In this document: positions 1-5,399 of the stretch, in pieces
How the letters are laid out: every line of letters begins with the position of its first letter
How positions within the stretch are numbered: the stretch's first letter is position 1
From: Rhodopirellula sp.
Lineage (GTDB): Bacteria; Planctomycetota; Planctomycetia; Pirellulales; Pirellulaceae
Length of the DNA: 64,000 nucleotides
Direction of reading: 5' to 3'
NCBI GenBank assembly: GCA_002689655.1
Contig: NZHC01000070.1
Span: forward strand, 69,272 to 133,271
Translations under genes and position numbers: made by a program
The notes under the pieces: model-generated
The model's input: only the letters and a program-made list of their open reading frames with translations
What the model was told of the DNA's origin: nothing
The model's database searches: none

Positions 1-294
1 CATTGAGTGGCGATAGCGATCCCGTGTGCTTTCAATCTGCTTGGCAGCAGCAACTTCCTGATCTCGGGTCAAGAGTGGGATTTGCCCCATTTGCATGAGA
101 TACATGCGAACAGGATCCTCGGTTGGATCTGCGGTGGAGTCATGACGACGTCGATCTCGGTCATTGTTGGGTCGTTGGTCCTCGTCATGAGCCTCAGCAA
201 AGTGCTGGCCCATCACACGCGCACGTCTTGAATTAGACTCATCAGCATCGAATGCATCGTCTTGCAAGCTGCGTCGGCTAAACTTCTTTGCCAT
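1..294 (-). CDS. rpoD: RNA polymerase primary sigma factor (sigma-70 family), N-terminal part, cut by window edge
   Basis: Reading the minus strand from the ATG at 294 gives 98 residues that remain open to base 1, so only the N-terminus is present. It begins MAKKFSRRSLQDDAFD, continues through a charged, disordered stretch, and then shows the sigma region 1.2 signature DPVRMYLMQMGQIPLLTRD followed by QEVAAAKQIE. This signature is diagnostic of group 1/2 sigma-70 factors, which direct core RNA polymerase to promoters. Regions 2 to 4 lie outside the window, so the primary versus alternative role cannot be decided. The region 1.1-like N-terminus is short (about 60 residues), as in other non-proteobacterial primary sigma factors. 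The family call is firm; the symbol is an inference. Confidence 0.85.
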   Translation of the reverse strand, partial: MAKKFSRRSLQDDAFDADESNSRRARVMGQHFAEAHDEDQRPNNDRDRRRHDSTADPTEDPVRMYLMQMGQIPLLTRDQEVAAAKQIESTRDRYRHSM

Positions 295-775
295 CGTCGG
301 TTCCTCTAAACCCGTTTCGTATCGGTCGGACAGGTGTTGGGGAGACCAAGCAGGCATAGTGCCGCAACTCTCTGAGGGGGAGGTATAAATCATGGCAAAC
401 TGTTGTGTGCGAATAAGTTGCGTGAAAAGTGACCCGAAATTTCATCCCCCCGGACGTTGCTTTTGCACCTCAGCCAAGCGTTGCGAAAAGTCAACAGCTG
501 TGGATTCGATGAATCGCTCGCAGAGTCACGACGGGCGTCGTTTTCTGCTTCGGTGTCCAACACTAGGTCACTTTGCGTGCTCTACCCGCTTTGTCCCCAT
601 GGATTTACACTTATCTTTCGATTTGGCGGGTCGGTACGTATCGTTCACGCGTCCTCAAACAACCTCTATTCAGTCCTTTCGCGTGCGATCATTGCTTTGT
701 TTTGATGCGCAACAGGGCGGAAGGGTTCCATTTCCCAGGTTTCGTCACCGAAGAAACTGATGAGTTTATTCCGCT
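295..775. other. Intergenic region between divergent sigma factor and glnE genes
   Basis: These 481 bases separate two divergent genes and must hold both promoters. The overlapping plus-strand open frames here (roughly 390-760) have no recognisable protein character and compete with one another, so I regard them as spurious. No tRNA, convincing terminator or repeat was seen. The glnE start has no clear Shine-Dalgarno sequence. Confidence 0.5.
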
Positions 776-3700
776 ATGGAAGCTGATCCTCCTTACACCG
801 ACGATGGTGCCCTGAACTGGCTCGATTTGACTCGATTCAGCGATCCAGAGCAGGTGAAAAGCGACCTCCGAGCCATCTGGAACTCCGGAGCCCCTCCTGA
901 ACTGCTGCACAGCCTGCGTTTAGGTCTGACCGCTCATCTTGATCAACTCGATGACTCGGACGAAATAATCCGCCATCTGAGCCGGTTTATCGACTCCAGC
1001 TCGGATCCTGTCTCGTTGCTGGCGTTATTCGAACGGGACTCCGAAGCCTTACCAGCATTACTGCAAGTTTTTGCAACGAGCAAAACCCTCGCAAATCGCT
1101 TGATTTCGGATCCGGAAACCTTCGATCTGATCCGAGCCAGTGACGGCAAAGCGGCATCTCCTGAGATGCTGATCGACCAATTGCTGACTGAACTGCGGGA
1201 TCTGGAGCAGCCAAATCGAGCAGCTCTGGTGATTCGCCGCTTTTCCTCCAAAGAAATACTTCGGATCGCCTATGGCGAATTTGTCCGTGGTGCGACACCT
1301 GAAAGAGTAGGCCGTCAAATTGCCGGTGTGATCGATGCCGTCATCGAAGCAGGACTCAACTTCACTCTGCAGCGACTTGCCGAACGTCGCGGCATGCCGC
1401 AACGCCCCGATGGGACGACACCGGAGCTCACCGTCATTGGTCTGGGACATCTCGGTGGCGAAGAGATGGGTTACGGATCATCAATCAAGCTCGTCTTTCT
1501 CTATGATTCAATCGATAACCAAAATGTCTGGCATCGGGATTTTTACAATACAGTTGTCAACGAGCTGCTGACGCTGCTGCGAGGCAACGAATCTCGCAGT
1601 GATGGAATGGATATTGATCTGCGTGAAGGACCTCGTTACGAAGTCGGAGTGCACATTTGCAGTTTCCGTGAAGCTTTACGGATCTACGAAACTGCTGGAC
1701 GAACCTGGCAACGACTGAGCTTTGTAAAAGCTCGAGTAGTCGCTGGCTCTCAAAAACTAGGCAAGGCATTCCTCAGTCGCCTTGAACCATGGATTTATCG
1801 TCGTTTCATGAGCCGCGTCGAAATTGCCGAAATCCGCACTCTCAGGAATAAGCTCGAAAAGTCACTCCTCAAGGACTCAGACGCACGCGAAGACATTGGG
1901 CGGAGCCCTGGCGGTCGTGATGATCTCGAACTGACAGTTGAGTTTTTACAGCTGTTGCACGGTGGCAATCTTGGCAGCGTACGCTGTCGCAACACGTACG
2001 ACGCAATCTTTTCGCTCGAGCAAGCTGGCTGTCTGACTCATCAGGAAGCGACGCTGCTGTCGGAAAACTATGCCCGACTTTGCCGGCTTCAGCACCAACT
2101 ATCGGTCATGTTCGATCAATCCAGCAGTCTCCTTCCCAGTGAAACGGCAGCTCGCAAACGCCTCGCCTGGCAACTCGGTATTCGTGCAGCCAATGGAACA
2201 GGCGGCGACATCGAACGTTTCGAGACTCTTTTGAACGACACGTTCGACAAGAACTGTCGCATGATCAATCATCTGATGCTGGATGCTCCTGGAGATGGTG
2301 ATTCGGTCGCATCCGAAACCGAACTATTACTTGATCCCAACCCTGACCCAGCGATGGTAGAAAAAACACTTTCGAGACATGGCTTAGTGAACCCGCAGCA
2401 CGCCATGGAAAATCTGGCGGCCCTAAGTACGGAATCTGTACCATTCCTGTCGCCGCATCGCTGCCGTCACTTCCTCACGTCCATTGCCCCCGCTTTGCTC
2501 ACTGAAGTTTCACGCACTCCTGACCCCGACGCAACACTCGCATCGCTTGTGGAAGTCACCGACTCGCTGGGAGCAAAAGCAACACTTTGGGAGTTATTAG
2601 GCAGCAGCCGTCCAACGATGGAATTAATGGTGCGACTTTGTGCGACAACCCCCTACCTCAGTGGCATTCTCACCAACAACCCCGGCATGATCGATGAACT
2701 CATTGACTCACTGTTGATGAATCGTATGCCTTCGGCACAACGCCTCGATGCACATTCCATCGCCGTCTGTCGAGGTGCCAACGATATTGAACGCATTCTC
2801 TGGACATTCAAAAATAGCGCTCACTTGAATATTGGCGTACGCGACATACTCGGAAAAGACACGCTTGAGGCGACTCACCAGTCCATTGGTGATACCGCTG
2901 AGTCCTGCGTCCGTCGCATGATCGAGCATGAACAAGAGTCTCTTGCCAATCAATATGGCGACCCGTGTGACGAGGAAGGTAACCCTGCCGAACTCATTAC
3001 GCTTGGTCTGGGAAAACTTGGTGGACGTGAACCGAATTACCACAGTGACTTGGATGCCATTTTTCTTTATTCGTCAACTGGAGAGACAAAACGCCGTATT
3101 GGTGGGCATCGCGCAACGCTGACCAACCAACAATTCTTTAACCAATTGACCCAACGAGTCATCGCGAGAATCAACCAACCCGGCCCCGATGGGCGACTCT
3201 ACGAACTTGATTCACGCTTGCGTGATACCGCAGAAGAAGGTGTCTTGGCCATGAGGCTCGAGGATTTCTGGTTGCGTTTCCGAGAAAACACAGCACCGTT
3301 ATGGCAGCGTCTTGCACTCTGCAAAGCCCGATCCATTTCTGGATCACGCGACTTGCGAGCCAAGGCAGACGAGACCATTGCAGAGCTCATTCGCAGCACC
3401 AAATGGAAACCAGAGATGGCAATTGAAATTCGGGAAATGCGAGAACGAATGCAACAAACTGCGACTCAGGCCAACATGAAGCGTGGCGAAGGCGGTACAG
3501 TCGACATCGAATTTGTTTCCCAAATGCTCACCTTGCGGCATGCCCACGAATCACCTCAGATTCTCCAAGCGGGTACGACCTGCACACTGCTGGCTCTTGC
3601 CGATGCGGGACACCTCAGCGATCAGGAGTCGATGACCCTCGTCACTGGATACCGGACTCTCCGCAGAATCGAAGCAAATCTGAGACTTATGAACACTACC

Positions 3701-3856
3701 GCAAGACACGAATTACCCGATGATTCGCACCTGATGAAAAATCTAGCGTTCCTGATGCATGAGACAGATCCCGAGATGATCGTCGCTCAGTGTGGTCAAA
3801 CACGACACAATAATCGCAAGGTTTTCAATCAGATTTTTGATCGTGCAAGTAGCTAA
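776..3856 (+). CDS. glnE: Glutamine synthetase adenylyltransferase (GlnE-type) with degenerate N-terminal catalytic domain
   Basis: The 1026-residue protein has the two-domain GlnE architecture: two nucleotidyltransferase domains, each followed by a helical region, somewhat longer than the roughly 950 residues of enteric GlnE. GlnE controls glutamine synthetase by adenylylation (C-terminal domain) and deadenylylation (N-terminal domain) in response to PII and glutamine. The C-terminal motif at about residues 743-763 is intact (GLGKLGGREP, then HSDLDAIFLY, with the two metal-binding Asp). The equivalent N-terminal motif at about 222-244 reads GLGHLGGEEMGYGSSIKLVF, so the Asp-x-Asp pair is replaced by Ser and Lys. 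The domain fold looks preserved, but metal-dependent deadenylylation there looks unlikely. The gene ends 61 bases before the sulfatase. The ATG at 776 is the first in frame. Confidence 0.88.
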   Translation: MEADPPYTDDGALNWLDLTRFSDPEQVKSDLRAIWNSGAPPELLHSLRLGLTAHLDQLDDSDEIIRHLSRFIDSSSDPVSLLALFERDSEALPALLQVFATSKTLANRLISDPETFDLIRASDGKAASPEMLIDQLLTELRDLEQPNRAALVIRRFSSKEILRIAYGEFVRGATPERVGRQIAGVIDAVIEAGLNFTLQRLAERRGMPQRPDGTTPELTVIGLGHLGGEEMGYGSSIKLVFLYDSIDNQNVWHRDFYNTVVNELLTLLRGNESRSDGMDIDLREGPRYEVGVHICSFREALRIYETAGRTWQRLSFVKARVVAGSQKLGKAFLSRLEPWIYRRFMSRVEIAEIRTLRNKLEKSLLKDSDAREDIGRSPGGRDDLELTVEFLQLLHGGNLGSVRCRNTYDAIFSLEQAGCLTHQEATLLSENYARLCRLQHQLSVMFDQSSSLLPSETAARKRLAWQLGIRAANGTGGDIERFETLLNDTFDKNCRMINHLMLDAPGDGDSVASETELLLDPNPDPAMVEKTLSRHGLVNPQHAMENLAALSTESVPFLSPHRCRHFLTSIAPALLTEVSRTPDPDATLASLVEVTDSLGAKATLWELLGSSRPTMELMVRLCATTPYLSGILTNNPGMIDELIDSLLMNRMPSAQRLDAHSIAVCRGANDIERILWTFKNSAHLNIGVRDILGKDTLEATHQSIGDTAESCVRRMIEHEQESLANQYGDPCDEEGNPAELITLGLGKLGGREPNYHSDLDAIFLYSSTGETKRRIGGHRATLTNQQFFNQLTQRVIARINQPGPDGRLYELDSRLRDTAEEGVLAMRLEDFWLRFRENTAPLWQRLALCKARSISGSRDLRAKADETIAELIRSTKWKPEMAIEIREMRERMQQTATQANMKRGEGGTVDIEFVSQMLTLRHAHESPQILQAGTTCTLLALADAGHLSDQESMTLVTGYRTLRRIEANLRLMNTTARHELPDDSHLMKNLAFLMHETDPEMIVAQCGQTRHNNRKVFNQIFDRASS

Positions 3857-3917: not shown

Positions 3918-5399
3918 ATGACATTCATGGCTCTGCTTCAACGACTACCCGTAATCTGTCTATTCTTGCTGGCCAGCGCGTGTCCCGACTGGGGGTTGGC
4001 CGCCAATAGAACGGCGGCCCAAGCCAAATCACCCAACATTGTGATGATTCTGGTTGATGACATGGGCTACGGTGATGCCCAGTGCTACAACGGTGAGTCC
4101 AAGATCCCAACACCCAATATCAACCAGCTGGCTCGTGAGGGTATGCGTTTCACTGATGCACATGCTGCCGGACCGCTGTGTCACATGTCCCGCTATGGTT
4201 TGATGACAGGGCGTTTCCCTTTCCGCACTGACGTTTCGCTGTGGCGCGAGCACCCCTTAATCGAAGCTAACCAAACAACCATTGCCAGCCTGCTTGCGAA
4301 CAACGCTTACCAAACAGCGATGGTTGGTAAATGGCATCTTGGCTTTGAAGAGAATGGTTATGACGAGCCATTGCCTGGTGGGCCGGTTGACCGTGGATTC
4401 CACTCTTTCTTTGGCATCCGCGCCTCCACTGACATCCCTCCCTACTTCTACATTCGAGGCAACCGCGCCGTCTCGCCGCCAACTGAAAATATCGAGGCAA
4501 GAAACACCAAAGGTTGGAGCAAGATCCAGGGCGAATTCTGGAGAGCCGGGGGCATTGCTCCCGGTATGGAACTCAAGGATGTACTTCCCCGCTTTACAGA
4601 TGAAGCCATTGATGTGATCAAAAGACACGAAAACAAGTCCGCTGAACAACCGCTTTTCCTCTACTTGGCATACCCAGCTCCCCACACGCCTTGGCTACCA
4701 GCGAAACAATTTCGTGGTAAAAGCGGTGCAGGCATTTACGGTGAATTCACCCTGATGGTCGATCACATGATCGGACGTGTCCTGAAAGCACTGAAGCAAG
4801 CCGACATGGCTGAGGACACTCTTGTGATCTTTTCCTCGGACAATGGTCCCGTCTGGTATGAAGAAGACGTCGAACGCTTCGACCATGACAGCTCAGGTGG
4901 ACTGAGAGGCATGAAAGCTGACGCATGGGAATGCGGACATCGCATGCCGTTCATTGTGCGTTGGCCGGGCAAGGTGAAGCCCGGCACAGTGAACGATCGC
5001 CTGATCTGCTTCACCGATCTCTTGGCGACATTTGGTGAACTGGTCGGCACAGAACTGTCGACAGACGCTGGGCCAGATAGCTTCAGTTTCTACAAGACGC
5101 TCCTGGGTCAATCCGAGCCGGATCGACCCACACTCGTGATCAAGAGCGGTAGTGGTGCCATGACCGCTCGCCAAGGTCCATGGAAACTGATCACGCAACT
5201 CGGGTCCGGCGGTTTTTCAAAACCGAGTCGCATCAAAACAACAAAAGGCGGCCCCGCAGGACAGTTGTACAATCTTGATGACGATCTCGGAGAACTCAAC
5301 AACTTGTATGACCAGAAGCCGGATGTCGTAGCCAGAATTTCCACTGAGCTGAAACGCATCCAAGAAAACGGCTCGAGCCGCCTGCCAAACATCCAATAG
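3918..5399 (+). CDS. Secreted formylglycine-dependent sulfatase (family S1)
   Basis: An arylsulfatase-type hydrolase of 493 residues that should cleave sulfate esters outside the cytoplasm. The N-terminus is a hydrophobic signal segment (residues about 6-23) ending LLASAC, so a lipoprotein anchor is possible. The metal-site motif LVDDMGYGDA (about residues 46-55) and the late FSSDNGPVWYEE (about 304-315) match the family. The modification site is C88 in LCHMSRYGLMTGR: Cys and Arg of the C-x-P/A-x-R signature are present, but the third position is Met. The frame is open further upstream into glnE. The ATG at 3918 is preferred because it places the signal peptide at the N-terminus and avoids that overlap. 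Sulfatases are abundant in marine planctomycetes that eat sulfated polysaccharides; the substrate is unknown. Confidence 0.88.
   Translation: MTFMALLQRLPVICLFLLASACPDWGLAANRTAAQAKSPNIVMILVDDMGYGDAQCYNGESKIPTPNINQLAREGMRFTDAHAAGPLCHMSRYGLMTGRFPFRTDVSLWREHPLIEANQTTIASLLANNAYQTAMVGKWHLGFEENGYDEPLPGGPVDRGFHSFFGIRASTDIPPYFYIRGNRAVSPPTENIEARNTKGWSKIQGEFWRAGGIAPGMELKDVLPRFTDEAIDVIKRHENKSAEQPLFLYLAYPAPHTPWLPAKQFRGKSGAGIYGEFTLMVDHMIGRVLKALKQADMAEDTLVIFSSDNGPVWYEEDVERFDHDSSGGLRGMKADAWECGHRMPFIVRWPGKVKPGTVNDRLICFTDLLATFGELVGTELSTDAGPDSFSFYKTLLGQSEPDRPTLVIKSGSGAMTARQGPWKLITQLGSGGFSKPSRIKTTKGGPAGQLYNLDDDLGELNNLYDQKPDVVARISTELKRIQENGSSRLPNIQ

Follow-up and report, generated by a model that had tools for sequence, protein, structure and literature searches.

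The window, by which we mean the whole 64,000-nucleotide stretch of Rhodopirellula sp. DNA analysed here, encodes a GlnE-family protein that may have outlived its substrate: we hold it about evenly balanced that the N-terminal half of this protein is dead and that its C-terminal transferase modifies a target that is not type I glutamine synthetase (GSI) and that probably belongs to the PII circuit. GlnE was the founding member of the protein AMP-transferases, with GSI as its textbook substrate. As set out in the consulted part of PMC12409994, the E. coli enzyme modifies the type I synthetase, its C-terminal domain adding AMP and its N-terminal domain removing it.

Under our preferred explanation, GSI would have been lost in the ancestor of a GSI-less Pirellulaceae clade, in which glutamine would be made by a type II synthetase and, in some members, also by type III. 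With no adenylylated GSI left to reset, the catalytic residues of the N-terminal de-adenylylase site would have decayed, and the N-terminal domain would have persisted as a pseudo-enzyme, still folded and under tight constraint. The C-terminal nucleotidyltransferase, its metal-binding triad kept, would most probably still transfer nucleotide to a non-GSI target, itself probably part of the PII nitrogen-signalling circuit. A clade that lacks GSI and keeps GlnE under strong selection would be a natural experiment, pointing either to a second GlnE target that was never looked for and possibly predates the loss of GSI, or to a non-catalytic role in PII signalling. If this is true, a classical regulatory enzyme has outlasted the one substrate it is known to have, in a clade of many genera.

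The glnE gene and its N-terminal site

776 to 3856, + strand: glnE-family gene, an open reading frame of 1026 aa with two nucleotidyltransferase halves
1433 to 1508, + strand: degenerate N-terminal nucleotidyltransferase motif GHLGGEEMGYGSSIKLVFLYD, read directly and aligning with E. coli residues 160-180
1469 to 1471, + strand: Gly232, aligned to E. coli Asn169
1481 to 1489, + strand: Ser236-Ile237-Lys238, aligned to D173-x-D175 (codons 1481-1483 for Ser236 and 1487-1489 for Lys238)
1616 to 1618, + strand: Asp281, the sole retained N-terminal carboxylate, aligned to E. coli D223

Family membership is supported by tandem Pfam matches, PF03710 (277.9 bits, cut-off 24) and PF08335 (GlnD_UR_UTase; 93.1 bits, over its curated cut-off) each covering two stretches, and the NCBIfam model of the bifunctional enzyme, NF008292, barely exceeds its cut-off (495.1 bits against 487). 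In these matches, as in its two homologous nucleotidyltransferase halves, the protein resembles E. coli GlnE. PF03710 matched the glnE gene alone in the window genome, in which no second GlnE copy was found, and named relatives, at 83-95% identity, are labelled Rhodopirellula, Rubripirellula, Planctomycetaceae or Planctomycetota. An AlphaFold2 model built from 14 sequences had a mean pLDDT of 67.1 and a pTM of 0.50, with the C-terminal nucleotidyltransferase modelled poorly; its N-terminal half superposes on that of E. coli (1V4A; Z 35.8, rmsd 2.9, 414 of 429 residues aligned), and the predicted N-terminal fold is thus retained.

Residues were matched in a MAFFT alignment of 149 GlnE rows (order and phylum combined, covering part of the 135 genomes of the family in which GlnE was matched) that included E. 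coli K-12 GlnE. An earlier note on this DNA had read Ser and Lys in place of the N-terminal Asp pair and an intact pair at the C-terminal site, and the alignment bears it out: S236 and K238 stand against D758 and D760, the latter joined by D812. Where a bifunctional GlnE has the triad D173/D175/D223, the window protein has S236, K238 and D281, so that two of three carboxylates are lost, and Gly232 replaces Asn169. The part of PMC4454073 that we consulted describes an Asp triad in the fold and gives Asn169 as essential for AMP removal and dispensable for transfer; the assignment of E. coli D223 and D752 as the third carboxylates is our own reading from the conserved motif. Because two of the three carboxylates and the Asn169 equivalent are gone, the N-terminal site has very probably lost its de-adenylylase activity.

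The earlier note had also raised whether this loss was lineage-wide, and within the genus it is. None of the 22 genomes has an N-terminal DDD triad (SKD in 8, PKD in 7, PRD and SQD in 2 each, and PTD, PQD and PND in 1 each), which rules out a sequencing accident at S236 and K238. Loss throughout the class was considered and rejected, as five class members of family f17, together with G043, keep DDD (two class rows, L254 and L255, of G254 and G255 type, are partial and not fully readable). Outside the class DDD is present in 29 of 29 rows. As judged from the aligned rows, loss of the triad is confined to Pirellulales, and mostly to one family.

Glutamine synthetases and the fate of the triad

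The window genome is 99.95% complete and contains a single PF00120 match. This protein scores 52.9 bits against the type I model TIGR00653 (cut-off 429) and 418.4 bits against GlnII, short of that model's 500-bit cut-off; the scored stretch, 333 aa long, is truncated where the locus ends. The solved chains nearest to it are glutamine synthetases of eukaryotic length (344-423 aa). By these comparisons the lone synthetase match is type II. A GSI elsewhere in the window genome was rejected, since PF00120 matches the type II gene alone and a GSIII_N profile search gave no match.

The same holds for the genus, in which no GSI scored over the TIGR00653 cut-off in any of 22 genomes, that of the window included, and in which a same-genome GSI with a Tyr397-type site, the expected partner of a bifunctional GlnE, was accordingly found in 0 of 22. 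The searches covered two sets of Pirellulales genomes, with 54 of 80 over the cut-off in the first (0 of 8 genus members) and 36 of 80 genomes in the second (0 of 14). GSI was likewise absent by this profile from G003, a closed, single-contig, 100% complete member of the genus, and from the single-contig genomes G165, G182, G190 and G208, whereas control genomes gave a match in 14 of 14 and a score over the cut-off in 13. In three genomes from outside the class (G083, G136 and G149), which count against our preferred explanation, DDD is present although no GSI reached the cut-off; their assemblies consist of 250-360 contigs.

Across 116 Pirellulales genomes, the triad survives in 46 of the 49 whose GSI tyrosine site is normal (YDL or YDM), in 3 of the 15 whose site is altered, and in none of the 52 without a GSI over the cut-off (Fisher p 6e-25, kinship ignored). 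The 52 include four g129 genomes with far-diverged GSI-like frames of 86-131 bits (cut-off 429). Excluded from the 116 were G261 (RD-) and G277 (YR-), with a third-position gap, no GSI and no Asp pair; G024, with the N-terminal half missing; and G171, which has DDD and whose GSI is a fragment lying at the end of a contig. A tree from which the motif columns were left out implies at least 8 triad changes, 7 site changes and 2 changes in GSI presence. Independent pairs numbered 4 in the same direction, 0 opposite and 2 without difference (p 0.125, n = 6), and on a 71-row tree 3, 0 and 2 (p 0.25). The link is thus mechanistically sensible and consistent, but with so few independent events it is not significant and not statistically proven. 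Six genomes depart from it: G022, G159 and G207 lack the triad though their GSI site looks normal, and G160, G255 and G180 have the triad though theirs is altered. Two of these, G160 and G255, are sister to the GSI-less clade, and because they combine a GSI bearing Phe at the site with an intact triad, they suggest that the GSI tyrosine site was lost first, and GSI and the de-adenylylase thereafter.

Several states occur within one genus, g142: normal GSI with DDD (G276 and G287), altered GSI with EED (G235), GSI broken by one TAA in the frame match with AET (G296), and neither GSI nor GlnE found (G177 and G260).

The C-terminal site, selection and alternative readings

3014 to 3067, + strand: C-terminal nucleotidyltransferase motif GKLGGREPNYHSDLDAIF, Asp pair D758/D760 intact, Asn754 in place of E. 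coli Gly697 (direct reading and alignment)
3209 to 3211, + strand: Asp812, the third C-terminal carboxylate, aligned to E. coli D752
3275 to 3307, + strand: Arg834 and Gln844, aligned to E. coli Tyr774 and Glu783 (alignment and residue conservation)
3479 to 3505, + strand: C-terminal motif K902...G906-G907..D910, retained (alignment and residue conservation)

The C-terminal motif of the window protein reads NYHSDLDAIF, with D758 and D760 at the positions of E. coli D701 and D703, so that with D812 for D752 the whole triad of a bifunctional GlnE is present and aligned as in E. coli. In the genus the Asp pair occurs in 22 of 22 genomes and the full triad in 20 of 22; among the 52 GSI-less genomes 42 keep the pair and 10 have lost it. 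In the main GSI-less clade, all 43 rows retain D703, K846, G850, G851 and D854, and 42 of them retain D701. Tyr774 and Glu783 are nearly universal in GlnE where the genome has a normal GSI: among the 44 readable reference rows from Pirellulales, 43 have Tyr774 and all 44 have Glu783. Outside the class both are present in 29 of 29 rows, and both are lost in all 43 rows of the GSI-less clade. This loss could reflect either a change of substrate or a site without activity; since the two residues may be needed for catalysis, the C-terminal site may be inactive. Asn at the Gly697 position, a mark of the removing domain according to the part of PMC4454073 consulted, is found in 41 of 44 readable Pirellulales reference rows and 42 of 43 clade rows. 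The rule that distinguishes the two domains in E. coli therefore fails here, and some AMP-removing activity of the C-terminal domain of Pirellulales GlnE is possible.

The residues invariant in 71 reference GlnE sequences were followed through the 43 clade rows, counting as lost any residue kept in under half of them. In the N-terminal domain 17 of 33 were lost and 8 kept, in the C-terminal domain 4 of 17 were lost and 7 kept, and in the middle region all 10 were kept. Selection was measured between the window protein (L003) and five unsaturated relatives, two further pairs being saturated, and gave a whole-gene dN/dS of 0.037-0.057, with 0.019-0.035 for the N-terminal and 0.017-0.052 for the C-terminal nucleotidyltransferase domain. 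GlnE is under strong purifying selection, the N-terminal domain included; by dN/dS this very probably dead domain is constrained no less than the other parts and shows no drift, and it may have a structural or sensor role.

Class members L249-L253 and L256 show the reverse kind of departure, with Asp-x-Glu (DIE) in the C-terminal motif and an intact N-terminal motif.

The conservation of the N-terminal domain can also be read to mean that both sites are inactive and that GlnE is a scaffold or sensor binding PII or glutamine, an alternative that we take seriously and regard as rather unlikely. The loss of the otherwise universal Y774 and E783 in the entire clade favors it, as do the sister lineages that have lost C-terminal Asp residues (g157 with DQG or DQS; g129 with DTH, DNK or DSK) and whose frames of ∼1000 aa nonetheless remain open. 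However, the near-complete retention of D701, D703, K846, G850, G851 and D854 is hard to explain without catalysis, and the lineages without the C-terminal Asp residues have a higher dN/dS (0.086-0.141 in three pairs).

It is improbable that GlnE now adenylylates the type II synthetase, whether for good or with a different enzyme taking the AMP off again. Type II is the sole synthetase found in the window genome, but it is also present in GlnE-less genomes and in those with a normal GSI and GlnE. A visibly adapted type II target was rejected because a comparison of 9 with 26 sequences found no clade-specific conserved tyrosine, although an ancestral tyrosine could serve.

Nor do we give much credence to slow decay, in which GlnE would be a functionless relict heading for loss. 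The g142 series, running from normal GSI with DDD to neither GSI nor GlnE, looks like such a course; in the window clade, however, the frame is intact over many genera, and its dN/dS is comparable to that of the pair G160-G255 (0.045) and lower than that of G200-G268 (0.076), a pair with normal GSI. GSI-less relatives without detectable GlnE (G177, G184, G219, G236, G245 and G260) do count against our preferred explanation; such absence, or the loss of the C-terminal Asp pair in 10 of 52 genomes, is what one would expect had the main job gone.

That the protein adenylylates GSI in one direction, with another enzyme resetting it, would fit a lost N-terminal site and a kept C-terminal triad but is very improbable, as all 22 genus genomes, closed G003 among them, lack a detectable GSI. 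The earlier note had suggested that the protein may adenylylate and not deadenylylate glutamine synthetase, implying another reset route or a sensor role for the N-terminal domain: the missing deadenylylation very probably stands, the substrate does not, and as no GSI was found in the window genome or in the other 21, a separate reset route is not needed. A GlnE-family protein that departs from the bifunctional enzyme in two defining respects, its N-terminal site and its substrate, probably has a different job.

The PII circuit and comparison with known systems

The signaling partners of a bifunctional GlnE are present in the window genome, which has three PII genes and a GlnD (531.3 bits against a cut-off of 519.4). 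Of 80 genomes, 79 gave a GlnD match by TIGR01693 (71 over the cut-off) and all 80 a PII match, and both proteins persist in the GSI-less genomes searched. GlnE was not detected in 11 of the 80 (G177, G184, G204, G211, G219, G229, G236, G245, G248, G260 and G293). These have 1-4 PII genes (mean 2.3), compared with 3-6 (mean 4.3, n = 39) in GSI-less genomes with GlnE, and no more than two PII genes were counted in 7 of the 11 but in 0 of 69 GlnE-bearing genomes, these being raw counts uncorrected for kinship and completeness. Eight of the 11 encode ammonium transporters; in G236 and G219 no PII gene adjoins them. Because GlnE-less genomes have fewer PII genes, the counts hint that GlnE is still part of the PII circuit without GSI. 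Tentatively, then, and with somewhat less than even confidence, we picture the window protein as a one-way AMP-transferase that acquired a new target in the PII circuit after the loss of GSI, its de-adenylylase half being kept as a signaling pseudo-enzyme.

The three PII genes of the window genome are L111 (1498-1833), L112 (1480-1827) and L113 (1501-1800). One adjoins glnD and has the T-loop Tyr, which we take to be Tyr51; another lies in the amtB region with Phe replacing that residue (YRGHEF); and the third is an orphan with an odd T-loop (YQETEY) and a short C-terminus.

Compared with E. coli GlnE, the window protein lacks the equivalents of D173, D175, N169, Y774 and E783, and no GSI substrate was found in its genome. 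Like Streptomyces coelicolor, its host also has a type II synthetase; unlike the window protein, however, Streptomyces GlnE is described in the consulted part of PMC11356632 as modifying the resident type I GlnA even though type II is present. A precedent for other protein targets of the nucleotidyltransferase fold is the AMP-transferase domain of DrrA/SidM, which shares the fold and has a non-synthetase target (PMC4454073, in the part consulted). The window model matches it (6yx5) at Z 22.1 with 8% identity, but DrrA/SidM is a single-domain Legionella effector without close sequence relation to the window protein. The titles and abstract openings matched in searches of open-licence papers do not describe a GlnE without GSI or with an inactive N-terminal half, which does not imply that none has been published.

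Gene neighborhood was rejected as a functional clue: rpoD diverges upstream of glnE in 4 of 8 regions and an IlvD/Edd dehydratase follows it in 4 of 8, and no mechanism follows from either. The dehydratase lies directly 3' of glnE in GSI-less genomes of other genera, and not in the window.

L291 3220-4992, L292 7988-9712, L293 3357-5120 and L294 8383-10230: IlvD/Edd-type dehydratase (Pfam check on two)

In the window, positions 1-393 (- strand) presumably hold the start of an rpoD-like gene that diverges from glnE and runs off the window, and glnE is followed by a sulfatase gene (PF00884) at 3945-5399 (+ strand).
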